Source: a virus. From it: a stretch of DNA of 48,719 nucleotides. A program made the position numbers and the translations under genes. Positions 8,627-48,277 of the stretch are shown here, one piece after another (the stretch's first letter is position 1; each line of letters begins with the position of its first letter). Under the pieces are notes generated by a model, which had not been told where the DNA came from, searched no databases, and worked only from the letters and a program-made list of their open reading frames with translations. The DNA lies in the IMG/VR virus record IMGVR_UViG_3300037247_001476, positions 1 to 48,719 of that record. One strand, 5' to 3'.

Positions 8627-9270
8627 AGGTCCCTCGCGAAGACGTAGCTTCCTACGCTGTCTCGCCCAAACCGCTCCTCCAGACGGGAACGCTCTAACAA
8701 CTCCCACCCTTGCTCTTTGAGCCACCCGATCAGCCCCCATTCCGTGAAGTACCACAGGTGCTCACGCGGCTTGAAGTGACGACTCCGAAGCACCACTTCC
8801 GCGTTCTCGTAGATCGGCGTCGAAATGAAAAGACAGTGTGTCACCCGCGCGATGAGAGCCTTCGGATTGTTCATGTGCTCGAGGCTGTCCCACAAGGTTA
8901 CAGCCCGCACCGTCGCGTCAAACGGATCGCGCCAAAGTCCCTTCTCCTTGAGCCATGCGCGCGGAGAATCGGCCACGTCGTAGCCCTTCGTCTTCTCCAT
9001 GCCCCGTTCCATGATGAAAGCCCCACTCCCGATCCCAACATCGAGAAGGCCACCATCCCACCACGACTCGACAAACTCCACCCGCGACTCGTTGAGACGT
9101 TCCCCACGCTTGTTGCGCGAGATGACATCGAAAGCCTCGAAATAGGCGGCCGGATACTCGAACGGATGTTTCACTGGGAGATGACCGAATCCCTTCTCCG
9201 GGAACCACACAAACTCACCAGCACACCGACAGTCACGAAGCCAACGCGTACAGTCCTTGCACGTCTTCAT
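8623..9270 (-). CDS. SAM-dependent methyltransferase with N-terminal Cys cluster
   Basis: A 215-residue class I methyltransferase. Motif I is GLLDVGIGSGAF (about residues 74-85), and TLWDSLEHMNNP is the post-II/III segment common in sugar O- and C-methyltransferases. The N-terminus carries Cys at 4, 7, 14 and 16, a likely small zinc site as in the sugar methyltransferase group whose N-terminal metal domain precedes the Rossmann fold. The ATG at 9270 overlaps the radical SAM stop as ATGA. With the neighbouring transferases, methylation of a glycan is the likely role, but the substrate is not visible. Confidence 0.85.
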   Translation of the reverse strand: MKTCKDCTRWLRDCRCAGEFVWFPEKGFGHLPVKHPFEYPAAYFEAFDVISRNKRGERLNESRVEFVESWWDGGLLDVGIGSGAFIMERGMEKTKGYDVADSPRAWLKEKGLWRDPFDATVRAVTLWDSLEHMNNPKALIARVTHCLFISTPIYENAEVVLRSRHFKPREHLWYFTEWGLIGWLKEQGWELLERSRLEERFGRDSVGSYVFARDL

Positions 9271-10658
9271 CGTCGAACAAGCTCCCCGCCAAGACGGTCA
9301 TGCTGCTGGAACTTGTTCACCTTGGACAAGTGATCTCCCAGATTCACGCGCCAGTACTCACGTGCGTTGATGTACTTCTTGCTCATGTCGAAGAACGCGT
9401 TCTGAATTCGGCGGCCCAGGTTCAAGTGGATCAAGCCCTTCGTCACGACCGGGTAGAGCCATGGCCAGCGAACCACCGCGGACCAGTACTTGTGCAAGCG
9501 CTCAATCTTCTCCTTGTCCCGTAGGTTGGGCACCGAGCACTCATCAAAAAACGTCGCGTTGACAAGGTAAGTGAGCTCCTCCACCGACTTGACGACACCC
9601 TTCTTGACCAAGATGTCTGCCATCACCGTGCCCGGGTACGCCTGCAGGAGCGAACACCAAGACAGCGTGGGCTTGCATTTGATATTGAAGCGCAAGGTTT
9701 CCATCGCGTCCGCAAGCGGGTCATCGACGGGGAGGCCCAGGAGGTTCTGCATTCGGAACTTGATCTTGTACTTGTGCAGGAGAGCGACGCCCTTCTCGAT
9801 GAGCTCGTTGGACTCGCGTCGATCCAACACTTCCTTGCGTGTCTCCTCGTTACCGCTCTCGATCGCGAAGCTGGCGATATGGATGCCGGCTTGCTTGAGG
9901 AGCTTGACCCGATCTTCCGTGATCAGCTTGGGCCGCAGCTGCGCGAAGAAGGGGAACCGATACTTGCTGTAGAGATCGGTGAAGCGCTCCAACCACTGCA
10001 TGTCGATGCCGAAAATGTCATCCTGGAACGCAACAAACTTGCCACCCCAAAGCCGAAGTGTCCGCTCAATATCCTCGACCATGTACTCCGGTGAGTGTTG
10101 CCGAACACGCGCCCCCTTCGTCATGTCCTGCCACTCCTTGTTCGAATTGTAGCAGTACGTGCACTTGTAGGGGCAGCCGCGCGCCGCAAGGAAGTTGCGA
10201 ATCAGGTTGTTGCGCACATGAGGAAACCGCACGTTGTAGAAGAGCTCCCGATCCGGCGGCGCCAAGGCATCCAGATTCACGATGGGTTCCAGATCTACAT
10301 GGGAGCGCCCGTTCACTGCGTCGATCGTCGCACGCTCTCCATCACCGCGGATGATGATGTCCGCGTGCTCCTGCCCCGCCTTGGAGAAGAACAAGTAGTG
10401 CGGCCCGCCAAAGATTGTCTTCCTTCGCGGCCAGAGCTCCTTGACCCCCGCAGCCACCGCTCCCCAGCGACCCTCATCCCCTGAAAGGACTTGGAAGGCC
10501 ACAAAGTCTGCGCCCCAGTTGGCAGAAGTCAGAAGAGCTTGCGACTCAGTACACGCCAACGTCGCATGCCCGGCCCGCAGCAGCGCCGACGACACGTACT
10601 CCATCCCCAAGGGTTCCTGGCTCACGCCGTCATGGGTGACGAAGAGAATGCGCTTCAT
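9267..10658 (-). CDS. B12-binding-type radical SAM enzyme
   Basis: A 463-residue protein with an N-terminal Rossmann-like domain of the cobalamin-binding type (KRILFVTHDG start; TIFGGPHY near residue 81). I do not see the classical DxHxxG ligand motif. The radical SAM barrel has CPYKCTYC (Cys 162, 166, 169) for the 4Fe-4S cluster, then FQDDIFG, IESGNEE and a helical C-terminal part of about 130 residues. Members of this large class catalyse methylations, cyclisations and rearrangements on lipids, sugars and cofactors. The ATG at 10658 follows the previous stop by ten bases. Its neighbours suggest a sugar or glycolipid substrate. Confidence 0.9.
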   Translation of the reverse strand: MKRILFVTHDGVSQEPLGMEYVSSALLRAGHATLACTESQALLTSANWGADFVAFQVLSGDEGRWGAVAAGVKELWPRRKTIFGGPHYLFFSKAGQEHADIIIRGDGERATIDAVNGRSHVDLEPIVNLDALAPPDRELFYNVRFPHVRNNLIRNFLAARGCPYKCTYCYNSNKEWQDMTKGARVRQHSPEYMVEDIERTLRLWGGKFVAFQDDIFGIDMQWLERFTDLYSKYRFPFFAQLRPKLITEDRVKLLKQAGIHIASFAIESGNEETRKEVLDRRESNELIEKGVALLHKYKIKFRMQNLLGLPVDDPLADAMETLRFNIKCKPTLSWCSLLQAYPGTVMADILVKKGVVKSVEELTYLVNATFFDECSVPNLRDKEKIERLHKYWSAVVRWPWLYPVVTKGLIHLNLGRRIQNAFFDMSKKYINAREYWRVNLGDHLSKVNKFQQHDRLGGELVRR

Positions 10659-24500: not shown

Positions 24501-27500
24501 GTGGACCTGTGGACTCGGGCGAGGAATGCCTTCGTCGAAGCGCTCGATGCGAACCTCAGAAGCCTCAACATCAAGACACTCACCCGCACAGGGGATTGGC
24601 AAAGTGTAGTTTGCCCGCTCTGTGACGACAAGGGTGGCTCCTGCTCGGTCTCCATCAACAGTGCGCACCTGAAATGTCACCAGTGCGGCGAGAGTCTCCG
24701 ACTGTTCGATTGGTATGCGCGCTTCAAGGGACTCGGTGAAGATTGCTGGGCTGCGTGCAAGGCCATCGCAGCCGACCATGGCATCGAAATTCAGCGGCAG
24801 GCACGGCGGGGAAGGCCACGAAGGGAGCTCGGGCCGGATGGGCTGGAACAAGCGATCCAAGATCTCTGGGAGGATCCAGCTGCCGAGCCGTTCCGTCTGC
24901 AACTCAAGAAGCGCGGCTTCACCCAACTCGAGTGCGCCGACTATTACCTTGGCTTCCGTGACGGCAAGCTGATCTTTCCGCAGGTCAGACCCGACGGCAC
25001 GGTGCGCCCTCGGCATCACTGCTGGCTCGGGCCATGGTCGCAGAAGTACAAGTGGTGCTGGAACGCGGGCAAGGACGATCCGAACTGCTTCTGGCCGCTA
25101 CACATTTTGCCGGGGAAGGACGACATCATCTTCCTCACCGAAGGCGAGTGGGATGGGATGATCGGAGGGAAGAAGCTCGCTTGGCCCGGCTACACGTTCT
25201 ACTGCTGGACGGGTGGAGTCACATCCCCGCTCAAGTGGGGCCACATCCCCGATTGGTTGCGTGGCCGCCGTGTGATCTTCTGTCCGGACAACGACACCTG
25301 GCAAGGGTTGGACGTCGAGCACTACTTCGCTCCCGACGAGAAGAAACTGCGGGAGGCCTTCGTTCGTCGCAAGAAAGCCTTGGAGACCTGCCACGTCATG
25401 GACCGCATGGGCTGCAGGGTGCAGCTGGCACAGGTACCCATCAAGCCAGAGGAGAAGTGGGGCGGAGACCTGCGCGATTGGTACGAGGCCGGCGGGAGGA
25501 GTCTCAACGAGCTCCTCTTGACCGACTACGACGACATCAAGAAGCAGCGCCCCCATGCTGAGAGCGTGACGCTGTCGGAAGCGATGACGAGGCCAGGGAA
25601 GCAGGTGAAGTACGAGGCCGCCATGCTGTCGGCGGACTTCGAACCCAAGTGGATCCCTGACTACACCACGGTTACTTGCGACATGGGGCAACACGCCTTC
25701 TGCGACAAGTGCCGCATCCCGAAGGAGTTTCCGGAGGGCGTGATACACCACGACGAGAACCGCGACCTGCAGGCACAGTGCATCATTGCCCGCGACCCGG
25801 AACGCGCGATGGAGGAGAAGGTGCTCGGCATCCCGCGCAGCTGCAACTTCCACCGCCTCGATCCAAGCGACGAAGGGCACCTCGGCGGGGTGTGGCTAGC
25901 CAAAGGCTTCGCCGAGAAGAGCGAGGTTGACGAGTGCCTTGTCCTGTCGACCACCATGCCCGACGTGTCCGGTGGTGTGGAGGTTGAGGGGAAGATGCTA
26001 CACAGCTTCTCCAGAAGCCAAGTGTTCTGTCGTGCTGACGAAGTGCACGTTGCACAGGCCGAGCCCGTCGACCTGCAACCCTTTATGGTTGATCTGATGG
26101 GCGAGTGCCCCTGGGACACCGAGGACCCAGACCGCATCACCGCCTACATGGAGAGGCGAACGAACGACCTGACTGCCAACGTGACACGGGTGTTCGGGCA
26201 GTCTCGAGTGCAGATGGCTTTTGACCTGCTCATGCACAGCGCGTTGTGGATGACCGTAGAAGATCGAAAGCGCCGCGCCTGGCTAGACGTCTGCGTCATG
26301 GGCGTCACCCGGTCAGGCAAGAGCGAAATCACCAGACAGCTCAACACGCACTACGGAGAGCTCGGTCGGGTGGTATCGACACAAGACAACTTTTCGCTGG
26401 CGGGTCTCGTGGCCGGCAACGTGCGGGGTCGAGACGGAAACTACCGAGTCAAGCCGGGCCTGTTGCCGATCAACAACAGGAGAGCTCTCGTGCTTGACGA
26501 GTTCCACACCATGCGGGGAGAGCGTGAGCGCTCCCTACTGGAATCCCTGCAGGAATGCAGAGACGTAGGCTTCGTCCAGACCGTGAAAGTCGCTGGGAAT
26601 CTGCGTCTCCCTGCGGCCGTACGTCTGTTGACGGTGGCGAACCCGCCAGCGGATTTCTCCCTCTACCGGTACCAGTGTGAGATGCTCCTGGACCTGTACG
26701 TGTCACCGGAGTCTCTTGCGCGGCTGGACTTCGGCGTGATCATCACGGAGGAGATGCACGAGAAGGCCTTGCAGTTGAAGCCCTTCACGAGCAAGGAGTT
26801 CTGGCATCCCGACATCTCCAACGCACTGGTGAAGCGCGCCTGGGAGCTCGAGCCCGAACAGGTGATGTTCGGGGAAGGAGTCATGGATCTGTCCCATCGG
26901 GTTCTAAAAGAGTGGTCTTCGGTTCTAACCACGGAGCTCCCCCTCTTCACGGGGCCAGAGAAACGGCTCTCCCTGCTCCGGGTAGCCATCGCCATCGCCA
27001 ACCTGACGTTCTCACACCCGAAGGGCGAGCCGATGGTGTGCATGGTACGCCGCGCACACGTGACCTGGGCGCGCGAATGGTTCGAACTGATGTGGAACGA
27101 GAGTGGCTACGGGGACTTGTGCGCCGGCAGTCCGAAACGGAAGCTGGTGAGCAAGCCGCTGCTCGTCGAGTGGCTCTTTGTCAAGCATTTCCCCGAAGCC
27201 GACGACGCCGCGACGGCACTGACCCACTTCTTCAAAAGACTTGCGCGTGCCGAGATCCAAAGCCTGCTGGGCATCGAGATTCGTGACGTGGACAAGTGGA
27301 CCCGTGACGTTCTCGCCAACAACGCCTTGGACTTGTCACGGCAGAAGGGACACTTCACTGCGTTCCAGCCGACCGACGGGGGAGTGCGGATCTTGCGCAG
27401 GATTGTCGAGATGGCAGAGACAGACCCAGAGGAGTACGTCAGCCGGAGAATCAAGCTTGACTACTGGATGGGGAACCAAGGGAACGGCTTGCCGCTGGGA

Positions 27501-27551
27501 AGCGAGCCAGAACTAGAACCGTTGACCGAGGAAGTGGAGTGTCCATTCTGA
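24501..27551 (+). CDS. Primase-helicase: zinc finger, TOPRIM and MCM-like AAA+ domain
   Basis: A 1016-residue replication protein. The N-terminal zinc finger has Cys 38, 41, 59 and 62. A TOPRIM-like domain follows, with FLTEGEWDGM (near 212) and FCPDNDTW (near 258). A middle Cys cluster (CDMGQHAFCDKC) and an OB-like part precede an AAA+ domain with Walker A GVTRSGKS (601-608), Walker B LVLDEF (D666, E667) and SLARLDFGV (near 740) in the arginine-finger position. The insert layout (GNYRVKPGLLPINNRRALVL, TVANPPADFS) is MCM-like, not RecA/DnaB-like as in T7 gp4. It should unwind DNA and make primers for the host polymerase. The GTG has GGGAGG upstream. Confidence 0.88.
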   Translation: MDLWTRARNAFVEALDANLRSLNIKTLTRTGDWQSVVCPLCDDKGGSCSVSINSAHLKCHQCGESLRLFDWYARFKGLGEDCWAACKAIAADHGIEIQRQARRGRPRRELGPDGLEQAIQDLWEDPAAEPFRLQLKKRGFTQLECADYYLGFRDGKLIFPQVRPDGTVRPRHHCWLGPWSQKYKWCWNAGKDDPNCFWPLHILPGKDDIIFLTEGEWDGMIGGKKLAWPGYTFYCWTGGVTSPLKWGHIPDWLRGRRVIFCPDNDTWQGLDVEHYFAPDEKKLREAFVRRKKALETCHVMDRMGCRVQLAQVPIKPEEKWGGDLRDWYEAGGRSLNELLLTDYDDIKKQRPHAESVTLSEAMTRPGKQVKYEAAMLSADFEPKWIPDYTTVTCDMGQHAFCDKCRIPKEFPEGVIHHDENRDLQAQCIIARDPERAMEEKVLGIPRSCNFHRLDPSDEGHLGGVWLAKGFAEKSEVDECLVLSTTMPDVSGGVEVEGKMLHSFSRSQVFCRADEVHVAQAEPVDLQPFMVDLMGECPWDTEDPDRITAYMERRTNDLTANVTRVFGQSRVQMAFDLLMHSALWMTVEDRKRRAWLDVCVMGVTRSGKSEITRQLNTHYGELGRVVSTQDNFSLAGLVAGNVRGRDGNYRVKPGLLPINNRRALVLDEFHTMRGERERSLLESLQECRDVGFVQTVKVAGNLRLPAAVRLLTVANPPADFSLYRYQCEMLLDLYVSPESLARLDFGVIITEEMHEKALQLKPFTSKEFWHPDISNALVKRAWELEPEQVMFGEGVMDLSHRVLKEWSSVLTTELPLFTGPEKRLSLLRVAIAIANLTFSHPKGEPMVCMVRRAHVTWAREWFELMWNESGYGDLCAGSPKRKLVSKPLLVEWLFVKHFPEADDAATALTHFFKRLARAEIQSLLGIEIRDVDKWTRDVLANNALDLSRQKGHFTAFQPTDGGVRILRRIVEMAETDPEEYVSRRIKLDYWMGNQGNGLPLGSEPELEPLTEEVECPF

Positions 27552-27733
27552 ATCCTTCGCTCCGCGATCCCTTCACCACCTTCGACGTGGGCACCGGCAA
27601 CCGAGAAGACCTGCTCGACATCATCTGCAACGGTGATGATGAGGACGAATTCAAGGGCTGTGGTCTCAAGTGGTTGTGGAGGATCTGTCCCTGCCGAGAC
27701 TGCAAGGAGTACCGTCGTGAACGCAACCGCTAA
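27539..27733 (+). CDS. 64-residue protein carrying a copy of the capsid N-terminal segment
   Basis: Residues 15-29 (FDVGTGNREDLLDII) are identical to residues 12-26 of the major capsid protein encoded at 46220-47242 on the other strand. Over those 45 bases 41 match, and all four differences are silent third-position changes. The C-terminus is unrelated and Cys-rich (GCGLKWLWRICPCRDC). The GTG start has GAGGAAG upstream and overlaps the primase stop by 13 bases. It may be a decoy or regulator of capsid assembly, or a remnant of capsid gene duplication. The silent-only changes favour a translated, selected product. Confidence 0.75.
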   Translation: MSILNPSLRDPFTTFDVGTGNREDLLDIICNGDDEDEFKGCGLKWLWRICPCRDCKEYRRERNR

Positions 27734-28037
27734 AGCTCTGCTGGCCGGCGTCGTCAAGCAGATCGAGAAGATCTATGAAAATCGACCGGGCCTTTTTCTT
27801 GACATCAAGTTGACTTCGGAATGGCTGGTCAAAGAGGATGAGCTCGTCAAGAATGTAAGAAACGCGAAGGGTGCCACGCAGATGCGTGTGCACACCCGGA
27901 AGTTCGTCACGGAATTCAAGGCGGCATGTTCGAGGTTCAAGAAGGTTGAAAAGCCCCGCCTCAACAGGGCGGGGGACCCAGCTGGAACGATCTATCCGAT
28001 CGACGGCGGACCTTCTCGAACAGCACCAACGCGCTAG
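27717..28037 (+). CDS. Small helical protein between capsid-arm copy and resolvase
   Basis: A 106-residue basic protein starting at GTG 27717, overlapping the previous gene by 17 bases. It begins NATAKALLAGVVKQIEKIYE, with further helices and a central QMRVHTRKFVTEFKAACSRF segment. Its 3' end overlaps the proposed start of the resolvase. No family was recognised. The surrounding genes suggest DNA metabolism. Confidence 0.6.
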   Translation: MNATAKALLAGVVKQIEKIYENRPGLFLDIKLTSEWLVKEDELVKNVRNAKGATQMRVHTRKFVTEFKAACSRFKKVEKPRLNRAGDPAGTIYPIDGGPSRTAPTR

Positions 28038-28458
28038 ACTGTGGAAGTGGCCCAACGATCTCCGTTTGATCGGCGGGAATAAGGTCGTGTACGGGGAGAA
28101 GACCGGCTGTGACTTCTTCGGCTACGACTGTAGCGCTCGCGCCATCATGGTCGAGTGCAAGATGCGCGAAAAGACGTCTCTTGGCATCGGCCCCAAAAGC
28201 GACATCAAGCCGCACCAGTGGAACGAGCTCATGTTCTGCCACAATGCCGGCGGGGTCGCGCTGATCGTCTGGCAGCGCGGCGAAGAGGTTGCCGTCTTCG
28301 ACATGGACATTGCCCAGCGCTTGAGCATTGCGGAGGATCGCGTCTCCATCCCATGGAAGCAGATCCCAAAGCTCTACAAGCACCACGAGAGCGAGAAGTA
28401 CCGACTGCTCGATCCCTACTTGGTCATCCCGCTTGGCCAGCTTTCGTCTCGAGGATAA
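27946..28458 (+). CDS. RecU-like Holliday junction resolvase / PD-(D/E)xK nuclease
   Basis: About 170 residues with a PD-(D/E)xK core: GCDFFGYD (D56) and IMVECKM (E70, K72), preceded by GRGTQLERSIRSTADLLEQH, matching the RecU N-terminal helix, and followed by IKPHQWNELMF and GVALIVW. RecU-type enzymes cut four-way DNA junctions made during replication and packaging. The start is uncertain: TTG 27946 has GAGG 11 bases upstream and keeps the whole recognisable domain. A GTG at 27871 would add an Arg/Ser-rich stretch that reads as out-of-frame sequence. It overlaps the last late gene at its 3' end. Confidence 0.82.
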   Translation: MKSPASTGRGTQLERSIRSTADLLEQHQRARLWKWPNDLRLIGGNKVVYGEKTGCDFFGYDCSARAIMVECKMREKTSLGIGPKSDIKPHQWNELMFCHNAGGVALIVWQRGEEVAVFDMDIAQRLSIAEDRVSIPWKQIPKLYKHHESEKYRLLDPYLVIPLGQLSSRG

Positions 28459-29252: not shown

Positions 29253-29543
29253 TCAGTCCCCTTTGAGAATCTTGATGCGGCGCTCGATAGGTTCGGAGAT
29301 CCACACTGGAACCGTGTCCGCACCCCTAGAAACCGACATGTGAATCTCTTCCAAGAGATCCTTCAACACAAGCAGCGCAAGACTCTCGCTCTCGCGGCAG
29401 TGCTTCGCCAGCTGCATCAAGTCTTCCATCGAGATCGACGCTTTCTGCTGCGCCATCTTTTGCCCGCTGTCCTGAGCGGCGGCAACCGCGCGAAACTGTT
29501 GCAGCATGCGCACTTCATCCGGTGTCACTTCCTCGGTTGTCAT
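29253..29543 (-). CDS. Small helical late protein
   Basis: A 96-residue helical protein (MTTEEVTPDEVRMLQQFRAV, then a central helix SMEDLMQLAKHCRESESLAL and a C-terminal VWISEPIERRIKIL). The ATG overlaps the stop of the giant ejection protein as ATGA. It could be a virion cement or chaperone for the next gene, which follows after two bases. No family was recognised. Confidence 0.65.
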   Translation of the reverse strand: MTTEEVTPDEVRMLQQFRAVAAAQDSGQKMAQQKASISMEDLMQLAKHCRESESLALLVLKDLLEEIHMSVSRGADTVPVWISEPIERRIKILKGD

Positions 29544-32500
29544 CGTCCCTCCAGAATGTCAAGCAGGACTTCGGCCTGCTGGGTCTTGCTGAGTTGGTAG
29601 AACTTCGGCGAAAGGATACCTCCGGACTGGATGACTTCACGCTTCTTGAGCTCGCGCTCCGCGGCGGCCTGCATTCTGGCGATCACATGAATTTTGGAGA
29701 GCCCGGCAAGCTCGAGCTCGTCACCCACCTCGTTCCACACGTTCTCGATAGACTGTTGCATCTGCCCAGCGTCCGCGCTGACAAGCCCCGCCATGAACCG
29801 CGGCATGTTGTTCTGGATCGACGAGCTCAGCTGTGCTCCCCGCCGCTGCACACGACCGGCCAAGTGTTCCGCATGTAGCATGCTCCCAGGCAAGCCGCGG
29901 GTGACGTCCACGTAGCCCACGAACGGGGCGTACTTCATCCACCGTTCTCCCGTGCTCCGGTCTCGTTGACCTGTGTTCGTGATAGCCTGGGCATCCGCAA
30001 GCGGGCGGAACGAAGTCATAATGTCTGTCGTGAACGTGTTTTCTGCCCGCTCACCCAGAGACTCGTACTTGCTCTTGTACGTCGTACCGAACACCCCTCG
30101 GATCCATGGCGCTGTCCAGTTGTTGAGCGCTTGCTTAGCATTGTCAAGAATCCGAACCGGCTCTCGAGCCAGCACCGATTCAGACCCATGCCCGAACGCG
30201 TACTGGTACATGTCCTGCGCCAACGTGTTCATCCCGAGCATACGTGACGCCTCACCAAAGGTATCCTCGAAGCTCACCACAAACGGGTTGCCGAACTCAT
30301 CCCTCATCCAAGGCAGAATCAAATGACTGCGACCAGCGATCAACGGGTGGCTGTTCCAAAGCCTTTCTTCCTCTTCTCGGGCGAACATCATGTTCCAGAT
30401 GACGGCAGGAGCCATGTAGAGTCCGTAGCGCGCGGCCTGCTTACCTGGGTGACGCACAAGCTGCCCAAGACTCCGCGCGAAGTTCCCCTTGACCCAGGTG
30501 TAGAAGGGAAACAACAGTCCGTTCAGAGCCACTCTCTCCCCGGGAGTGAGATGGTTGTAGTTGACCAACACCTCGCCCGTTTTGATGTGCGCGTCTTGTG
30601 CGGAAAGGTACTCGGCGTCGGGGTGACCCTGGAGCTCGTTGAATCGAGCGAACCTCTCCCGGAGGAAGTAGGCAGCGCGGAGAATGTTCTCCGAGTAATC
30701 GTCCACTCCCTTTGCCCACTTGAAATCGCCGCGCGCAGCCATGCTGATGGTTTCCAGCAACCGGTTACTTTCTGGCATAACCTTTTGGATCCACTGGCGC
30801 TCCGTTTCCGAGTCGCGGGCGAACTCGGCACCGCGGACCATCTCCTGCATAGTCCCGAAGTAGCGCATCTCCTCAAGCATGGACTTCTCGTAGTTTGTGA
30901 GCTTGGAATCATCCCCGGTGGTGTGGGCACGCACGATTCGATGCGCCTCGCGCAGCTGGCCGAGGCTCTCTCGGAGGGCTTTTGTTCCGTCACCCGTTTT
31001 GAAAAACAGCGCCGTCGTATCGCTTACGAGGTTGCGCGCCACACGGAATGGTGTTGCCAACCCTCCGATCCCTCGGAGTGCTGGTCCCTTGAACCATTTC
31101 CCTATGATTCGGTTGATCGAATTCAGCAAGGGAGACTTGTACCACCCGCTCGGAGTCCGAGCTTCGCGCAAGAACTCGTACGCCTTCTTGGTCACCAAGT
31201 AGCGGCCTCGGGCCGCATCGGGCCGAAAGAACCCACCGATCACCGCCTCCGGGATGATGGGAAGTCCAGTCTTTGCAGCTATGTCCGACATCACGCGTTG
31301 CGTCACGTGGTCTCGTTCAAGGGTTCGTTCCCCGACGCGGCCACCTTGCACGTCGATCACAATAAGCCCCCGATCGCGCTCCAAGTGCTCGTAGAGCTGG
31401 CCCCACTCTTCGTCGGACATCTGTTCCACGGTGGTAGGGTCAATTTCGATGCCCTCTTGCGCCAGTTCATCCACTAGCCGTTCCTGAATGCGCCAGCCGA
31501 CTTCGTTCGCGTAGTCGTGCCACGCGTTGTCGACGCGCACCCGCGTCAAGTAGTCGGTGAGTGCATCAAGCGAAATGTCGGGAAGCCGCTCGCTGCCCTT
31601 GCGCTGCTTCAAGTAGCCGCGAATCGGCTCGCGTACCGGCGGGCGCTGTGACCCGGGACCAAGGGCGTCAAAGATGTCGTTCCAGTCCTTGATCCGCCGC
31701 GGGAAGTAGTCCGGCAGTCTGTCCTCCGCCTTGACAAGCCCTCGGTGCGCCATCGACATCCACGCGTCATCCAGGATGCCACGCATGCGTTCGTACGCAG
31801 CAACCACGTGCAGCGACTGTCCCGACTCGAGCTCCTTGATCTTGGCTTGGATCGCTTCGATCGTGGTGCCGAAAGGGAGCTCGGACATCACCTCGATTGT
31901 CTCTCCATTGGGGAGACGCTTCTGGCGAACGTAATTGGCCTGCAGGTCGCGCAGCACCGCGTAGCGAATTGTGTCGTCGATCAACGTCCGTCGCCGCTCT
32001 GGCTTCAAGTCCGGATCGCTGAGCATCGGTTCGAACATCTCGGCGCGATCAACGCGCGTGCGTTCCGGCGCGCGGCGCACCTCGGCGCGCACCCGATCCG
32101 TCTGTGCCAACACCAAGGCCTCGTCCTGCTCCAGCTTGAGAAAGGCCCTCCGGTAGCCCAGCGTCTCCAGCCGCTTAGCAAGCTCCTCCCGGTACGCGTC
32201 GTCCTTGAAGAAGCGCCCCAACCGATCGGCGAAGGACCCTGCCGCCCTCTTGGCGCGCTGGTACATCTTCTGGGGCGTGTCCCGCGACCCGCCCTCCAGC
32301 ATCTTCTCCACGGCTTCGGTTCCACGTGGAACGGCACCAGCCTCAAGACGGCCCAGATCACCCATCTCCTGGGACGACGGGGCTCGAGACTCAGGCTCGA
32401 ATCGCTCGCTCTTCTGGCCCGGGAAGCCCCCGCCCTTTTCAGGAAAGGGCTCTGAGGGGCGATCACTGGGGGTGGGCTCCGGAGAGTCGAAGCCCGCCGC

Positions 32501-35422
32501 CCGGTCGAGTGCCCGGACCGACTGCATGTCGCGCGCCATCTCACCCACGCCGCGCCCGAAATACTCTTCGGCCCGGCGCAAGAAGGCATGGATCTCCCCC
32601 TGCTTGGGGAGCGGAGTTTGTCGACCCGGGAGGGAACCGCCGATTGGCCCTAGTTGCTCCCTGGCCCGCCTGTACTCGCCCTGCTGGCTCGGTGTGATCG
32701 GGACCATCTCCGGGTCCTCTCCGGCCCTCTCAGCGTAGTGGGCGCGAGCCTCCGCTTCGTGGCGTCCTTCTGCGGCCGGCCCGAAGGTACCCGTCTCCAT
32801 GTAGCCGGCCCAGCTGCGCTGGAGCTCCTGGGGGGTCAGGAACAAGACATCCATTCCCACCTCACGCCCGGCCGTCTTGATGAACTCGACGTAGGCCTCG
32901 TGCACGTCGCGCGCCGCCTCACGCTGCCCTCTCTCGAGACGCTTGCCCTGGAAGAAGCTCTTGAAGGCCCGCGCTACCTCCACCGGTTCCATACCACGCT
33001 CGGCTGCGACCCGTTTCGCCACGGCCGGCGCCAGAGTCTTCGTCCACCGCTCCCGGTGCTCACCGAGCTCTGCCACCTTGCCCAAGCTGACCGTGTCCGT
33101 AGGCTCCCCGGTCTTCTTGATCAAGTAGGCGCCCTCTGGTCCGACCACCAAATCCGGCACATCACCTCCGGACTTGAACAGGTACTGCCGAAGATCCGCG
33201 ATGCTCGGCGGGTCCCCGCCCGGGTGAGTGTGGGTGCTGAGCACGCGCCCCTCACGGACGGCAGCGTCGAACTCCTCCGGCCCCAACCGCTTCCTCAGCC
33301 TATCCATGGCCGGCTTGGGGTCAAACTCAGCAGCACCGCCCTTGCCCGGAATGACGATTGTCTGCTTCCCGACACGCGCGCTCACGACGCCAACCTCTGT
33401 CGGCTTCTTGCCAAGACGCCGTCGGGTCAACATCACCAAGCGGCCCATCAGATTCTCGGTGCCCTTCTGAACGTAGCCCTCCGGGCCAGGCTCGACCGTG
33501 CGCCCTGACTCCTGCATCTGCTGCTCGAGCTCGCCCTGCTGCCTCAGACGCCGCCCTGCCTCTCTGTAGCCCTCCCTGGCTTCCTGGGGGAGCACCTCGG
33601 ACAGATCCTCGGCCTGCGGACCGGTGACATCCTCCGGCTCGACGTCGTACTCAACCCGCGTCTCGTCCTGCTCTTTGCGACGGGTCGAAGCCGCCTCACG
33701 CTGCATCATTTGCTGCCGACCGAACATGGCGCGTTGCACCATGGAGCCGAGCACCATCTCCCCGACGTAGTTCAAGTAGTCCCGCCACCCCTCGTCGGTG
33801 GGGTCCTTCATCAGCGCCCACAGGGACTTGCCTTCGGGGCTCTGCGAGCCGAACAGCGGGAACGGGGTCTGGCCCGTGATCAGATCCCCGCCGAGGTAGA
33901 CCGACCCCTCCATCATCCCGCCGAGCGAGCGCGCCAGCCACGCCGGCATGTTCTTGCGCCGGAGGAAGACCTCGCCGCGCCCCGCCACACCGTCTGCCAC
34001 GCGCAAGATCGGCGCCATCACCGCGCCGTGCGTGAAGCTGTTCAAAAACCCTTGGTGGTGCCCGTACACCAGCATGTCGTGGGTGCCCAATGCACCGGAT
34101 GTCCCCAGCGTCTCCAGAGCCATGGTGCGCAGCTTGTTCGCTCGAGCGCTGTTGCTGCCGAACATCCACGCAGTCCCGCGGACCACGGCATCCCGGTTGG
34201 CCAGCCACTCGCCGCCCTTGGCGCCGGCCCCCATGACCTGCCCGCCGGTTGCGGTGAAGCCGCGGAAGCTCGCGACCCACGTAGCGATCGAATTGATCAT
34301 CCCCTGTGCCGTCAGATCGCCGAAGGACTCCTGCCGCCCGTGCGCTTCACGGAACGACGCCATGGACTCGATCACCTCTTCCTTGGTGAGTGCACCGACG
34401 ACCAGCCCCGCGATCTCCGGCATCGAGAACCGACCGCCCTCCAGCGGGATGACGTTGCCGTTCTCGTCCTGCGTGAAGAAGTTCGTCGGGACCCAGCTGG
34501 ACTCCTGCCCGGTCATTTGCTCTTCGATGAACGACGCCAACCGGGTTGTCCCGTCGTAGGCAGCCACACCGATCGATCCCGCGATTGCTGCCACGCCATC
34601 GAGAGCATTGTACGCGATCGATGCACCGCGACCGACGGGAGCGCTGATCCAGTCGGGGATGTAGTCCTGCAGGACGTCGGGAACGTACGCGTTGTACTCG
34701 ACGCCGGGATCTGTTCTGCCGAAGTAGCCGCGCAAGGACGGACCGACAGTGCGCGTGAGGATGTGTGCCAGCTTCGCCGTGCGGGGATGCGTGTAGATGT
34801 TGAAGTTGGGATCGATCGCTTTGGCTGCACGGTTGATCTCAGACAGCTCGTTGGTCAGCGAGGTGTAGAACGCGTCATCCACCATGAGCGGCTTGAGTGC
34901 CATGATGCGCGCGGTGCGCGTCGCTTCCGGATCGTTGGGATCCAGCTGCGAAAGAGGCTGCTCGTTGATGTCTCGGTACTGCTCGAGCAAGCCGTTCAGC
35001 GTTCCTTCCAACGCTGAAACACGCTCAGCAACCACCGGGTTGTTGACCATGAACTCAAGCTGGTTCAGCTTCTTGTCCATGACCACGGCCATCCGGTTCA
35101 TCACCAGTTCCGGATCAAGGCCTTCGGTACCACCCCACTCTTGCATCGGGTCGACGCCCGTCATGGTGGCGCTGACCCACTGCTTCAACATCTCATAGTT
35201 CTGCTCGCCGTACAGACGGGTAGCTCTCTCCGAGTCTCCTTGGCGGAGTGCTTCGGTGTGGCTTCGCCTCAGACGATCGAGCGTGTCACGGTGCTCTTGT
35301 TCGAGAGCGTCCGTGAGAACAGGAAGCTCAGCGTTAGCGTTTCCGGCGCTCGGCCTCTCTTCGCTCAGCGGGGGTGAGCCTGCGCTGGCGGACGGACCGA
35401 GTGACGGGCTTTCCGCTTGCAT
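29540..35422 (-). CDS. Giant ejection-type virion protein with JAMM-like metallopeptidase motif
   Basis: About 1960 residues, third in the 14-15-16-like order of T7-type ejection proteins. An N-terminal helical part has hydrophobic stretches near residue 270. A JAMM/MPN-type site follows: TEVGVV (E676), HTHP (H731, H733), S740 and D743, spaced as in RadC- and deubiquitinase-like peptidases. The C-terminal third (PDYFPRR, LLFPFYTWVKGNFARSL) resembles the large polyvalent proteins of other phages. Such proteins are carried in the head and enter the cell with the DNA. The start is ATG 35422 (weak ribosome site). TTG 35539 would add 39 residues overlapping the previous gene. Confidence 0.85.
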   Translation of the reverse strand: MQAESPSLGPSASAGSPPLSEERPSAGNANAELPVLTDALEQEHRDTLDRLRRSHTEALRQGDSERATRLYGEQNYEMLKQWVSATMTGVDPMQEWGGTEGLDPELVMNRMAVVMDKKLNQLEFMVNNPVVAERVSALEGTLNGLLEQYRDINEQPLSQLDPNDPEATRTARIMALKPLMVDDAFYTSLTNELSEINRAAKAIDPNFNIYTHPRTAKLAHILTRTVGPSLRGYFGRTDPGVEYNAYVPDVLQDYIPDWISAPVGRGASIAYNALDGVAAIAGSIGVAAYDGTTRLASFIEEQMTGQESSWVPTNFFTQDENGNVIPLEGGRFSMPEIAGLVVGALTKEEVIESMASFREAHGRQESFGDLTAQGMINSIATWVASFRGFTATGGQVMGAGAKGGEWLANRDAVVRGTAWMFGSNSARANKLRTMALETLGTSGALGTHDMLVYGHHQGFLNSFTHGAVMAPILRVADGVAGRGEVFLRRKNMPAWLARSLGGMMEGSVYLGGDLITGQTPFPLFGSQSPEGKSLWALMKDPTDEGWRDYLNYVGEMVLGSMVQRAMFGRQQMMQREAASTRRKEQDETRVEYDVEPEDVTGPQAEDLSEVLPQEAREGYREAGRRLRQQGELEQQMQESGRTVEPGPEGYVQKGTENLMGRLVMLTRRRLGKKPTEVGVVSARVGKQTIVIPGKGGAAEFDPKPAMDRLRKRLGPEEFDAAVREGRVLSTHTHPGGDPPSIADLRQYLFKSGGDVPDLVVGPEGAYLIKKTGEPTDTVSLGKVAELGEHRERWTKTLAPAVAKRVAAERGMEPVEVARAFKSFFQGKRLERGQREAARDVHEAYVEFIKTAGREVGMDVLFLTPQELQRSWAGYMETGTFGPAAEGRHEAEARAHYAERAGEDPEMVPITPSQQGEYRRAREQLGPIGGSLPGRQTPLPKQGEIHAFLRRAEEYFGRGVGEMARDMQSVRALDRAAGFDSPEPTPSDRPSEPFPEKGGGFPGQKSERFEPESRAPSSQEMGDLGRLEAGAVPRGTEAVEKMLEGGSRDTPQKMYQRAKRAAGSFADRLGRFFKDDAYREELAKRLETLGYRRAFLKLEQDEALVLAQTDRVRAEVRRAPERTRVDRAEMFEPMLSDPDLKPERRRTLIDDTIRYAVLRDLQANYVRQKRLPNGETIEVMSELPFGTTIEAIQAKIKELESGQSLHVVAAYERMRGILDDAWMSMAHRGLVKAEDRLPDYFPRRIKDWNDIFDALGPGSQRPPVREPIRGYLKQRKGSERLPDISLDALTDYLTRVRVDNAWHDYANEVGWRIQERLVDELAQEGIEIDPTTVEQMSDEEWGQLYEHLERDRGLIVIDVQGGRVGERTLERDHVTQRVMSDIAAKTGLPIIPEAVIGGFFRPDAARGRYLVTKKAYEFLREARTPSGWYKSPLLNSINRIIGKWFKGPALRGIGGLATPFRVARNLVSDTTALFFKTGDGTKALRESLGQLREAHRIVRAHTTGDDSKLTNYEKSMLEEMRYFGTMQEMVRGAEFARDSETERQWIQKVMPESNRLLETISMAARGDFKWAKGVDDYSENILRAAYFLRERFARFNELQGHPDAEYLSAQDAHIKTGEVLVNYNHLTPGERVALNGLLFPFYTWVKGNFARSLGQLVRHPGKQAARYGLYMAPAVIWNMMFAREEEERLWNSHPLIAGRSHLILPWMRDEFGNPFVVSFEDTFGEASRMLGMNTLAQDMYQYAFGHGSESVLAREPVRILDNAKQALNNWTAPWIRGVFGTTYKSKYESLGERAENTFTTDIMTSFRPLADAQAITNTGQRDRSTGERWMKYAPFVGYVDVTRGLPGSMLHAEHLAGRVQRRGAQLSSSIQNNMPRFMAGLVSADAGQMQQSIENVWNEVGDELELAGLSKIHVIARMQAAAERELKKREVIQSGGILSPKFYQLSKTQQAEVLLDILEGR

Positions 35423-36725
35423 CTCTACCGCGCCTGGTGTCGAGCTCGGAATCTGGGGTAGGGGTCCCTTCCCTTGAAGCTCGGGACCTTCCAACGGCTC
35501 CAGCGATGTCAAATGCTCCTCCCATGCCGGCGGCACCAAACTGCTGGCTCATCGGCCGGCTGTAGGTGTCGCCAGACTGTTCGTTTTCTGCTTGGGTCAT
35601 GCCTCCGCCCTGACCGCCACCGGTCACTGCGGGTTGTGCTCCACCCGTGTCAACTTGGCTCTGGTTAGATTCAAGCGTTGCGCCCAAAGCGGCACGCATC
35701 GCGTTGAGGCCTTCCATGTTCTGGAAGAGCTCCGCCGACATTCGGTTGAGCATCCGTTCGCGGCCTTCTACATCTCCGCCCCACATCTGCATTCCGCCCT
35801 TGGCGCTCTGCCCGGCTGCCTGCATGGCGCGCATCTGCCCCGTTACGATGTTGTTGAGGCTTCCCTTGGTGAGCGCACGGAAGTTCATGTACCGCTTCAT
35901 CACAGGCGTATCGAAGTCGATCGTCTTGACCAAGCCTGTCTTGGCGGCCAGGCCAATGATCTCCATGTCTTTCTCTGCCTGGAGAGACTGAATCATCCGG
36001 CCGTAGTCCTCTTCTGATCCCGACCCAGCGTTGATCCTCTCAACCGTTTTTGCGTACTCCGGATTGGACTGCATCAACATCTGCTGCAGCGGAGAATTGG
36101 TTGCCTCCCTCGCGTCAAGCTCCTTGAACTTCACACGATCAAGCCGGGCATCGATGCTCTTGATGCGCGCGTGCGCCTTGTCCTCGATCTTGGTCTGTGC
36201 TGTCTGATAATCCTGCTGCGACTTGAGGCGAGCTGTCTGGAGGAGACGAGTCTCCGCCATCCGGTTGGTGACCTGGTTCTCGTAGGCGATGTTTGTCTTC
36301 TTCGATTGGAGCTCTGTGGTTTGGGCAAACTGCTGCTTCTGCGCTTGAAACTTCTTCGTCTCCAAACCGAGCTTTGCATCGGCCCGCTGGTCCGCTTTCT
36401 GTGCAAGACCGCTTTGTGCCTTGATCGCTCCTGTCTGTGCAGACTCACGATCTTCTCGAGCCTGAGTTGGCCGGTAGATCTTCTTGTCGGGATCAAATTC
36501 CAACCCGCGATCGGCGGCCGTAAGAGCGGCACGCTTCTCTTCCTGCCCCTCTTGCTGGAGCATGCCTAGACCCTTGCCCAACATCTGTTGACCTTGGGCT
36601 TCCTGTTGTCTCAGACCCGCTTGCTCATGTGCAGTCCGTTGTGCCTCGGCCTCAAGCGGGGCTCGCGCTGACGAACTCAGCACACGCGCCGCAGCTCTAC
36701 TTCCTGGCTCTTTTCGTTGTGGCAT
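35334..36725 (-). CDS. Ejection-type protein, long coiled coil (gp15-like position)
   Basis: A 463-residue protein, mostly helical and rich in Gln, Ala and Lys, with long coiled-coil-like stretches (ETKKFQAQKQQFAQTTELQ, QDYQTAQTKIEDKAHARIKS). A Gly/Gln-rich segment near residue 365 precedes an Arg-rich C-terminus (TPAERREAERRKR). No catalytic motif is visible. Its place between a glycine-zipper protein and the giant protein matches the middle ejection protein of T7-like phages. The 3' end overlaps the giant gene by about 89 bases. Confidence 0.7.
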   Translation of the reverse strand: MPQRKEPGSRAAARVLSSSARAPLEAEAQRTAHEQAGLRQQEAQGQQMLGKGLGMLQQEGQEEKRAALTAADRGLEFDPDKKIYRPTQAREDRESAQTGAIKAQSGLAQKADQRADAKLGLETKKFQAQKQQFAQTTELQSKKTNIAYENQVTNRMAETRLLQTARLKSQQDYQTAQTKIEDKAHARIKSIDARLDRVKFKELDAREATNSPLQQMLMQSNPEYAKTVERINAGSGSEEDYGRMIQSLQAEKDMEIIGLAAKTGLVKTIDFDTPVMKRYMNFRALTKGSLNNIVTGQMRAMQAAGQSAKGGMQMWGGDVEGRERMLNRMSAELFQNMEGLNAMRAALGATLESNQSQVDTGGAQPAVTGGGQGGGMTQAENEQSGDTYSRPMSQQFGAAGMGGAFDIAGAVGRSRASREGTPTPDSELDTRRGRDASGKPVTRSVRQRRLTPAERREAERRKR

Positions 36726-36734
36726 TTCAGACTC

Positions 36735-37553
36735 CTAGAAAGCTCCTGATGACCCCGCTCCAGAACCAATCCCGTACCCCACAGCGGCACCCGCAGGACC
36801 CGCAATCACGAAGCCCACAACACCGCCGATGATTCCTCCAACCATTCCACTCTTCTTGGCCTTCTTGGCTTGCCGTCTCGCTTCTTGCTGAATCCTCTCG
36901 GCTCGCTGCAACTGCTCGCTCTGGATCATCAACGTGTAGTCGGCCTGCTGAAACTCTTGGTTGGCGTAGAGGCTAGCGAGGTTTTCGTACATCCCGCTTT
37001 GCATGGCCGCCAACGACCCACGCCCCCGCTGCCGCACCAAACCCATCCCCGCTGTCTGCGCTGCAACACCGCGCGCATGTGACTCCTGAGTCTGCCGATT
37101 GTAGATCGCATCGGAGATCATCTGCAGCTTCATCATCTCCTCTTCGTTTTTCGGCTGGTACGTGATGTTGCCGTACTCGTCGACCATCGATCCGCTGCCG
37201 ATCGGGAGGCCGTAGGAGCGCGCCAACTGCTGCGCCATGTTGTTGAGACTGCCTGCTCCACCGCCAGTACCAGGAGAGATGGACTGTGCCCCGGGCGCAG
37301 CCCGGCCGGTCTGCATTCCCATCTGCCCTTCCACGGCAGACAATCCCGCTCCCTGCGCGATGATTCCGCGTTGGTTCTGCAGGCGACGGGCCTGCAGCTG
37401 TTGCATCAGGCCGGTCTGCATTCCCGCCGGGGCCGCGCCCATTCCGCCGCCGCCAGGGGGAGGTGGAGCTCCGCCGCCAGAAGCAGGTGGCATTCCACCG
37501 CCAGGGGGAGGAGGTGTTCCACCGCCGCCAGGGGGTTGGTACTGAGTCGTCAT
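36735..37553 (-). CDS. Glycine-zipper ejection-type protein (gp14-like position)
   Basis: A 272-residue protein. The N-terminus is a Pro/Gly repeat region (PPGGGG and PPPPGGG units). The middle is helical, with QQADYTLMIQSEQLQRAERI. After AKKAKKSG the C-terminus is a glycine-zipper membrane segment, MVGGIIGGVVGFVIAGPAGA. Membrane-inserting glycine zippers are seen in proteins that form the DNA-ejection channel. The ATG at 37553 has GGAGGG nine bases upstream. It is first in the triad of ejection-type proteins. Confidence 0.72.
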   Translation of the reverse strand: MTTQYQPPGGGGTPPPPGGGMPPASGGGAPPPPGGGGMGAAPAGMQTGLMQQLQARRLQNQRGIIAQGAGLSAVEGQMGMQTGRAAPGAQSISPGTGGGAGSLNNMAQQLARSYGLPIGSGSMVDEYGNITYQPKNEEEMMKLQMISDAIYNRQTQESHARGVAAQTAGMGLVRQRGRGSLAAMQSGMYENLASLYANQEFQQADYTLMIQSEQLQRAERIQQEARRQAKKAKKSGMVGGIIGGVVGFVIAGPAGAAVGYGIGSGAGSSGAF

Positions 37554-37554
37554 G

Positions 37555-37770
37555 TTATTCACCCTCCGCAAGATCGATCAAGGTCATCGTAGCTGCAATC
37601 TGCTGTGCCTCCGTCGATCTAGGATTTCTGAGAATGGTTTCCGCACTTGTCAATGATCGTTGCTTCGGTCCAGGAACACTGATCCTGGATCGAATCTTTG
37701 CAAGAAGACGCGACTCGGTTCTCTCAAGATCCGCAAGGATCACAGACGCTCTGTCACTGACTCCACTCAT
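37555..37770 (-). CDS. Small helical late protein
   Basis: A 71-residue protein (MSGVSDRASVILADLERTES, then Arg/Lys-rich and a C-terminal helix IAATMTLIDLAEGE). Its ATG overlaps the upstream stop as ATGA and its stop lies one base from the next ATG. No family was recognised. Its place suggests a virion or assembly accessory. Confidence 0.65.
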   Translation of the reverse strand: MSGVSDRASVILADLERTESRLLAKIRSRISVPGPKQRSLTSAETILRNPRSTEAQQIAATMTLIDLAEGE

Positions 37771-46085: not shown

Positions 46086-46220
46086 TCAACCCGTACCCTT
46101 GCGTGCGTAGAACTTCTCGTAACTCCATCGGCACGCAGGGTTCGAGCAGGTGAAGCGCGCGAGTTTCCCCGCGCGCTCCGTCAGCATCACGCTGCCGCAT
46201 TTCCGGCAGGGTCGTTGCAT
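46086..46220 (-). CDS. 44-residue zinc-finger protein coupled to the capsid gene
   Basis: A 44-residue protein: MQRPCRKCGSVMLTERAGKL, then FTCSNPACRWSYEKF. The C-x2-C ... C-x4-C arrangement predicts one zinc site. The ATG at 46220 overlaps the capsid stop as TGATG, so it is translated together with the major capsid protein. Small Com-like zinc proteins of this size regulate translation in phage Mu. Here binding to the capsid mRNA or to the capsid is a guess. Confidence 0.65.
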   Translation of the reverse strand: MQRPCRKCGSVMLTERAGKLARFTCSNPACRWSYEKFYARKGTG

Positions 46221-47242
46221 CAGCAGCCAGCAACTCCAGTGCAAAGGCTGTCGATGATTCCCGTGGCGTTGGGGGCCAGAACTTCCAGCGTCCCTTCCCA
46301 CTCGACCATTCCCTTGGTCGAAGAGCCAACCTTGGCAAGCTCCACAGCCAAGACCGGCCGGAGCACCGCAACACGGATCTTGTTGATCTCCATGGTCGCG
46401 ATGTTGGCGGTCGGCTGGTAGCGGTGCAGAAGCACGCGCTGTGTGCCGAAGTCGCTCTGGTAGTAGTCGACGGTGTTGATCACCGTCTTCTCATCCACAT
46501 TGATGTTGTACCGAACCTGAGAGTTCGGGTTCAACGTGAAGTTGGACATGGACCGCTTCTGCTCCGCGTTCGCGAAGATCGTGTCGGTCATTGCCCCCTT
46601 CTCCCACATGGCCTGCAGGTGGTCGTTGAGCAAACACTCGTCGATGCAGTTGGCCGGGGAAACCCCCGAAGCCGACGTCACCGTGCCAAGCTCGTCCGTG
46701 CTCAGCCCCAGCGTGGTTGCACACGTCGGGTCGGTTGCCTGCGCAAACTCCAGGTAGCCATCCATCTTGCGAGGCGCCGCGCCAGCCGCGTTGCCTTGAG
46801 CTACCTGTGACTGCCGCGCCGAGTGCCAGATCGCAAACTCGATGAATCGAGCGAGCTCCATGGACGCCTTGCGCAGCTGGTACACGTACTCGTCCCGGAT
46901 CCCAGCCGTGTTGATGTCACGCTGGGTGTCCGACACGTCGAACGTGCGCCGGATGATGTGGGTGAAGTTACAGAGACGCTTCCTCGGAACGAGGGCGTCG
47001 AATGCCGCGTCCGAACCTTCGGGCGTGGCCTGCACGTCAGCGTCACCCACGTCGGGATCGCCAAACGATGCGAGGGTATCCACGAGCCATTCGTGGATGA
47101 TGTTGCTCGCCGGCACCTTCTCCCACATGGAGAGGCCGAGAGTGTCCATCGGCGAGATGTTGGTGATGATGTCGAGCAGGTCTTCTCGGTTACCTGTCCC
47201 CACATCGAAGGAGTTCAGGACTCCTACCGATTCCGTAAACAT
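46220..47242 (-). CDS. Major capsid protein, SU10-type (DUF5309-like)
   Basis: A 340-residue protein with the SU10-type head protein pattern: NREDLLDIITNISPMDT near the N-terminus, NIIHEWLVDTL, NFTHIIRRTFDVSDTQ, then YVYQLRKASMELARFIEFAI and a C-terminal beta region (NKIRVAVLRPVLAVELAKVG). It forms the icosahedral or elongated head shell. The ATG has GGAG seven bases upstream, 36 bases after the scaffold stop. Its N-terminal segment is copied in the small gene at 27539-27733 on the opposite strand. Confidence 0.9.
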   Translation of the reverse strand: MFTESVGVLNSFDVGTGNREDLLDIITNISPMDTLGLSMWEKVPASNIIHEWLVDTLASFGDPDVGDADVQATPEGSDAAFDALVPRKRLCNFTHIIRRTFDVSDTQRDINTAGIRDEYVYQLRKASMELARFIEFAIWHSARQSQVAQGNAAGAAPRKMDGYLEFAQATDPTCATTLGLSTDELGTVTSASGVSPANCIDECLLNDHLQAMWEKGAMTDTIFANAEQKRSMSNFTLNPNSQVRYNINVDEKTVINTVDYYQSDFGTQRVLLHRYQPTANIATMEINKIRVAVLRPVLAVELAKVGSSTKGMVEWEGTLEVLAPNATGIIDSLCTGVAGC

Positions 47243-47278: not shown

Positions 47279-48277
47279 CTACCTCAGCCGATTCATCAGG
47301 TGTTGGTGCAGCATTCGGTCCGCAGTGCGCTTGTCGGCGGGATCCATCGAGCGGGCTTTCTTCGCCCATTCATCCCGTTCGTCGACAAGCCCACGCTGTT
47401 GACGTTCGTCTTGAGTCTCCGTCGTTGCCGGAGCGAAGCGTGCTGTGCCACCTGTTCCACGTGGAGGTATAACCGTAGGGACCCGCGGGTTGCGGGGCCG
47501 ATGGGTTACCGACAATTCTTCGTCGGTCGCGATGACGCGGAACGCTTGCTCTGGGTTGAGACCGTTGGATTCCATGACCGTTTGGATCTTCGACGGATGA
47601 ATCTCCGCGTCGAATCCTGCGTACTTGCCTGCGAGCCCAACCATGGCCTGGGTAAAGCTGTGCTCTCGAACCTCTCGCAACGCAGGGCCAACCTCACCCA
47701 TCACTTCCTCACGGATCGTGGATGCTTGCTGGCGTGCGTTCATGTCCGAAAGCACTCTTGCCCGGTCCTCTGGTTCCAAACTCTCCAGCTGTGCTTCCTG
47801 GATGCTCTGGATCTGACCCGCAAGGGCGTGGTTCGCGGTCCGCAACTCCTCAATGTCCCGATTCTGTTGGGCCGAAGTCGCTTGTAGCTCCCCGTTCGTA
47901 CGCTCCAATTCTCGCCTCTGTCCCGCCAACTCTCGAATGCGTTCTTGCGCTCTCGGTGACGTTTGGTCTGTCGGCTGCCCGTTCTCAACAGGTGGTTGCG
48001 GTGGCTGCTGCGCGATCTGTTCGTGGAACTCTACCCCTACGTGCTCGTCCGGGAGAGGCGCCGGCCCGCCTTGGGCCTGCATGTCCTCTGCACGGCGCTG
48101 CGCTTGCTCCTCACGTTGAGCCGCGCGCTGCTGAGCAATGTAGCTTGTCGCCGGGGGTTCGGGACCCTGCGCTGCTGCATCACCGTCGACCTTCACAGAT
48201 GGAAGGCCCATGGTGGCTTTCAACCGTTCCGCCGCTGAGTCGGCCCTTTGTTCAAATCCTGGGGGAATTGCTGACAT
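47279..48277 (-). CDS. Scaffolding / capsid assembly protein
   Basis: A 332-residue protein with a Gln/Ala/Pro-rich, probably disordered first third, a long coiled coil (RIRELAGQRRELERTNGELQ, NRDIEELRTANHALAGQIQS), a helical middle (MVGLAGKYAGFDAEIHPSKI) and a basic C-terminus. This layout and the place directly before the capsid gene are those of scaffolding proteins, which form the core for head assembly and then leave. The ATG has GGGAG about ten bases upstream. Confidence 0.85.
   Translation of the reverse strand: MSAIPPGFEQRADSAAERLKATMGLPSVKVDGDAAAQGPEPPATSYIAQQRAAQREEQAQRRAEDMQAQGGPAPLPDEHVGVEFHEQIAQQPPQPPVENGQPTDQTSPRAQERIRELAGQRRELERTNGELQATSAQQNRDIEELRTANHALAGQIQSIQEAQLESLEPEDRARVLSDMNARQQASTIREEVMGEVGPALREVREHSFTQAMVGLAGKYAGFDAEIHPSKIQTVMESNGLNPEQAFRVIATDEELSVTHRPRNPRVPTVIPPRGTGGTARFAPATTETQDERQQRGLVDERDEWAKKARSMDPADKRTADRMLHQHLMNRLR

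Follow-up and report, generated by a model that had tools for sequence, protein, structure and literature searches.

Organisation of the genome around the small ORF

The locus analysed here raises the question of why a small open reading frame (ORF) lying among the replication genes of a phage contains a piece of the major capsid protein of that same phage, and of what the resulting protein might do. The window, meaning the whole 48,719-nt stretch of DNA analysed, was found to be the complete genome of a phage, carrying a direct terminal repeat of 127 bp. The same virus was represented by a second assembly (L031), identical over the 13.4 kb compared and joined across the terminal repeat, so that the genome maps as circular; this second assembly ends short of the small ORF. 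The genes were arranged in a + strand block devoted to replication (SNF2-type helicase, primase with an MCM-like ATPase and RecU-type resolvase) and a − strand block of SU10-type head genes (portal, adaptor, capsid and terminase). The small ORF sits in the former, in the interval between the primase and the resolvase, while the capsid gene belongs to the latter (Table 1). As for the primase itself, the Zn ribbon region and the ATPase were found in a single chain of 1016 aa, the Zn ribbon match being below the Pfam cut-off. A family match was also sought for the putative scaffolding protein and was not found.

Table 1. Features of the window related to the capsid-arm copy and its source
Feature	Coordinates	Strand	Basis or remarks
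Primase, DnaG-type Zn ribbon and MCM-like P-loop ATPase	24501..27551	+	Stop codon overlaps the start of the small ORF
64-codon ORF	27539..27733	+	GTG start; encodes VSILNPSLRDPFTTFDVGTGNREDLLDIICNGDDEDEFKGCGLKWLWRICPCRDCKEYRRERNR
Parts of the small ORF, in order			Linker VSILNPSLRDPFTT; capsid N-arm copy FDVGTGNREDLLDII(C)N; acidic NGDDEDE; Cys-rich basic tail
Extra ~165 bp from the primase stop to the next gene	27552..27716	+	Absent from the relatives' junctions
10-mer GGTGATGATG, directly after the arm copy	27632..27641	+	Elsewhere on the + strand only at 47162-47171
Next gene, ~106 aa	27717..28037	+	GTG start with a perfect AAGGAG upstream; counterpart, by position, of the relatives' 77-121 aa gene after the primase
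RecU-type Holliday junction resolvase	27871..28458	+	ORF as listed; real start probably further in
Major capsid protein, SU10_MCP (PF17236), source of the copy	46220..47242	−	Profile match
Source segment, capsid residues 12-26 (N-terminal arm), FDVGTGNREDLLDII	47165..47209	−	Sequence; arm assigned by the SU10 capsid
Putative scaffolding protein	47279..48277	−	Position only, directly upstream of the capsid gene

A segment of the capsid gene is repeated in the small ORF

A comparison of the whole genome with itself confirmed the original prediction that 15 consecutive residues are identical in the small ORF and in the capsid protein, with 41 out of 45 bases matching (27581-27625 on the + strand against 47209-47165 on the − strand), the last 27 of which are identical in a row. 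At its full extent, the match covered 53 nt (27579-27631 against 47211-47159), 47 of them identical, with a blastn E-value of about 1e−14 in the whole-genome search, which rules out a chance similarity between the ORF and the capsid segment. It was the sole non-terminal repeat of the window at an E-value of 1e−5 or lower, and in six near-complete relatives the repeats were all terminal, local or self-palindromic, none of them joining distant genes. The copies had also been said to differ by silent changes only. This is true of the 45-nt core, where all four differences are silent third positions within the first six codons, but the codon that follows, also covered by the match, differs by two non-silent changes (T to C), which makes four silent differences out of six; the block had earlier been bounded at the end of the amino-acid identity. 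Similarly, the weak similarity pointed out upstream of the core (CTGAA-TCCTTCG against CTGAACTCCTTCG) is genuine, although marginal, being equalled by 145 of 5000 shuffles and by 2 of 46 real sites. The DNA match is confined to a part of the gene, and the flanks show no further convincing similarity, as corresponds to a partial duplication that has given a chimeric gene.

The source of the copy was identified as the N-terminal arm of the capsid protein. This protein belongs to the SU10_MCP family, with a score of 229.7 bits (cut-off of 24.1) over residues 16-332, and it matched by sequence the solved chains 9ny2 and 7z45. In the capsid protein of SU10, an N-terminal arm accompanies the HK97 fold (PMC9509320); the part of the arm that was copied includes the helical motif NREDLLDII. 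Moreover, the copied segment was 98% conserved in an alignment of 23 capsid sequences, which places it with the least variable parts of the protein. The origin of the copy in the capsid arm is supported by these comparisons. The structure of the capsid protein was predicted from an alignment of 17 rows with a mean pLDDT of 31, and it was left out of the analysis.

Coding features of the small ORF

The earlier description of a 64-residue + strand product, encoded in the replication operon and provided with a new Cys-rich tail (C41, C50, C52 and C55), proved right, and its frame was coding-like. A GAGGA motif was found 6 nt upstream of the GTG start. Furthermore, the tail, to which the capsid gene makes no contribution, scored 0.126 in the codon model of this genome, in which coding windows have a mean of 0.25 and 95% of the non-coding windows are below 0.076, while the other two forward frames over the tail scored −0.25 and −0.56. 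Together, the start context and the codon score of the tail support the translation of the small ORF, short of proof.

No Pfam match was obtained for the small protein up to E = 1, which leaves it outside the SU10_MCP family, and none was obtained with PADLOC. The AlphaFold prediction from its single sequence was of low confidence (mean pLDDT of 54). Regarding its orthologues, none was confirmed by tblastn of viral_contigs or genome_contigs, the GenBank phages gave nothing beyond noise at E = 8, and searches with degenerate patterns of the arm-Cys junction and of the Cys tail retrieved none; an origin of the tail was sought elsewhere in this genome and in the relatives, with nothing convincing. 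As the gene is present in one genome and an orthologue was not found, a dN/dS between orthologues has no pair on which to be computed.

The insertion is specific to this lineage

The relatives were fetched by means of their capsid proteins (73-82% identical), nine of them covering the end of the primase gene, and three more contigs were added via a primase profile. The primase sequence as a query for close relatives and the resolvase as a bait for relatives retrieved none. In all 12 homologous primase junctions (11 distinct, two being identical in sequence), the primase and the following gene abut or briefly overlap and the small ORF is missing, which makes its presence the derived state. In the genome under study, the ORF fills the gap of ~165 bp and overlaps both of its neighbouring genes. 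The proposed search of related phages for the same ORF-capsid pair did not find it in the sampled relatives, and a second copy of the capsid arm, also sought in them, was not found. Relatives lacking the small frame had been named as an outcome that would speak against the original prediction. Such a lack holds at all the relatives' junctions, but it indicates that the ORF is lineage-specific and is no demonstration that it lacks a function. The small ORF is regarded as a real, unusual and lineage-specific chimera, for which a function is plausible.

What the silent differences indicate

The silent differences had been taken to suggest selection on the peptide. However, the capsid genes of the relatives that keep the peptide presented between 2 and 9 silent changes with respect to this capsid gene over the same 15 codons, and the differences among those genes over the segment were almost only silent. 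The silent-only pattern is weaker evidence of selection than had been stated, because a capsid-gene fragment of diverged origin would show the same pattern through selection on the donor capsid gene, with none on the small protein. The codons of the present-day relatives were tabulated as well: codon 3 is GTG both in the copy and in the capsid gene of this genome, and GTC, GTA or GTT in the other sampled capsid haplotypes, while the 27-nt block was present in just one other sampled capsid gene (L013). The shared GTG codon favours a copy taken from the phage's own lineage. Under this model, the neutral probability of the 15-codon identical run was 0.002-0.004 (six changes in 51 nt, with the choice of the boundary allowed for), and a low omega was preferred over omega = 1 by about 17-fold if the adjacent changed codon was included (0.0101 vs. 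0.00059) and by about 50- to 100-fold if it was not. Given a copy from its own lineage, neutral drift appears unlikely and selection in place would be the better reading. Nevertheless, the changes are unevenly spread, all those of the core falling in the first six codons, and a mosaic origin could also produce such a distribution.

The possibility of a signal shared at the nucleotide level was also considered, in which the 27-nt block would be a binding site of a regulator or an enzyme kept twice in the genome. The 27 consecutive identical bases agree with it, but the silent diversity of the segment in the capsid genes was the one expected from the amino acids (0.322 vs. 0.322), the RNA folds of the two flanked segments were ordinary (z of 0.46 and −0.93, with −1.63 for the isolated 27-mer) and Rfam gave no match. 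The unsuppressed silent variation, the lack of an RNA family and the ordinary flanked folds disfavour a regulatory DNA or RNA element, which is considered very improbable.

Moreover, the 10-mer GGTGATGATG that follows the arm copy corresponds, at its other + strand occurrence, to the antisense strand of the copied capsid segment, and it pairs as a hairpin with the CATCATC located just upstream, at the end of the copy. This 10-mer could have been left behind by a template switch.

A possible mimic of the capsid arm and its alternatives

The reading tentatively preferred, although with somewhat less than an even chance of being correct, is that of a lineage-specific chimeric gene encoding a soluble mimic of the capsid arm, perhaps a decoy. 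According to it, a part of the lineage's own capsid gene, namely that of the N-terminal arm, would have been copied into an insertion between the primase and the following gene, where it would have ended up within a new 64-residue protein made alongside the replication genes. Of this, the existence and source of the copy, the coding-like frame and the restriction of the insertion to this lineage are established; the remainder is inference. The small protein would be made early, ahead of the capsid protein, and its retention would be due to its presenting the arm detached from the rest of the capsid protein. By mimicry, the free arm would occupy whatever partner binds the arm of the capsid, the candidates being a host sensor of the capsid protein, in which case the small protein would be a decoy, or else the scaffold or a neighbouring capsid subunit, with consequences for the timing of assembly or interference with co-infecting phages. 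The choice between these partners is a guess; the decoy is preferred on account of the position of the gene with the presumably early genes and of the copied stretch itself, one of the least variable regions of the capsid protein. Capsid proteins are known to trigger CapRel (PMC9712102) and Thoeris (PMC11312562), and in the Gol/Lit system of T4 it is the Gol region, the best conserved stretch of gp23, that binds EF-Tu (PMC3014915). In its most specific form, that of a self-derived decoy in which the most invariant capsid peptide, made as a separate early protein, blinds a host capsid sensor before there are capsids, the proposal is rather improbable.

Neutral capture is a serious and close rival of the arm mimic, and it is judged a real possibility, if a somewhat doubtful one. 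It states that an illegitimate recombination or a template switch placed a capsid fragment, from the own lineage or from a close relative, beside the primase, the silent differences having arisen in the capsid genes and the ORF being functionless or a passenger. The almost exclusively silent variation of the capsid genes over the segment agrees with it, as do the lineage-specific character of an ORF for which no orthologue was found, the possible hairpin or antisense trace adjoining the copy, and the grouping of the differences in the first six codons, as a mosaic origin would yield. It is opposed by the GTG codon, found among the sampled capsid genes in this genome's own alone, and by a 27-nt block otherwise present in L013 only, as well as by the open frame with a coding-like tail foreign to the capsid and by the fit of the ORF to its neighbours, with a plausible start and overlapping ends. 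An assembly artefact, in which metagenomic reads from the capsid gene would have been wrongly joined beside the primase, would be compatible with the fact that the site is covered by a single assembly, L031 stopping short of it. Yet the copy and the capsid gene differ at 6 of 53 bases, and the flanks of the copy are unique, coding-like and in keeping with the operon, so that such a misjoin is scarcely credible.

The remaining alternative is an assembly factor, in which the free arm would bind the scaffold or a capsid subunit of its own phage, delaying or shaping the heads. The satellite-encoded proteins CpmB and Ccm act in this way on their helper phages. In heads of the HK97 fold, the arm meets both the scaffold and the neighbouring subunits. 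In particular, the scaffold of 80alpha and CpmB contact the helix of the capsid N-arm (PMC5644958), the competition between CpmB and scaffold at the N-arm site being discussed in a study of D3 (PMC12749128), while the arms of phi12 contact the P-domain of the adjacent subunit, with resistance mutations located within the contact patch (PMC8569155). However, the gene lies among the replication genes, away from the head genes, and relatives with capsid proteins ~80% identical manage without it, so this role seems unlikely.

Bacterial immunity is repeatedly triggered by capsid proteins, and the capsid arms are points at which head assembly is controlled. If the preferred reading of an arm mimic is true, a free copy of the arm among the replication genes would serve naturally as a dominant-negative agent or a decoy, and it would demonstrate fragment capture as a route by which these mimics arise. 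The ORF-capsid pair is directly testable, as it consists of one small gene and one peptide with two obvious classes of partners.

Comparison with known systems

The closest described cases share some of the features of the small protein. Ccm of SaPIbov5, a satellite-encoded homologue of the capsid protein of the helper phage (PMC8569155), likewise derives from a capsid protein, is the product of a second gene and can interfere via capsid-capsid contacts at an interface where the N-arm matters. In contrast, Ccm is a satellite product, a full-length protein with an HK97 fold that assembles into pentamers, whereas the small gene is within the phage itself and its product of 64 aa shares ~15-17 residues with the capsid protein, without the full fold that defines a protein of the Ccm type. 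CpmB of SaPI1, an alternative internal scaffold (PMC5644958), is also small and would act, as is expected of the small protein, at the contact between the capsid N-arm and the scaffold, but CpmB binds the N-arm while the small protein copies it. Similarly, Gol of T4 gp23, with Lit (PMC3014915), is a short and highly conserved capsid peptide that acts alone in a host-phage conflict; unlike the small protein, which is the product of a separate gene, Gol is part of gp23 itself. Finally, the SU10-type capsid proteins (PF17236; 7z45 and 9ny2) are the source of the peptide, of whose fold the small protein has nothing beyond part of the arm.

Other features of the genome

Some further observations were made outside the locus. 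On the − strand, a radical SAM protein with a weak match to a B12-binding domain is encoded at 9267-10658, and a protein of 1999 aa, for which PHROGs gave no match, at 29540-35539. Moreover, three tandem units of 24 nt, similar to CCGCCGCCAGGGGGAGGTGGAGCT, were found at 37447-37526, in the 5′ end of the − strand gene located at 36735-37571.
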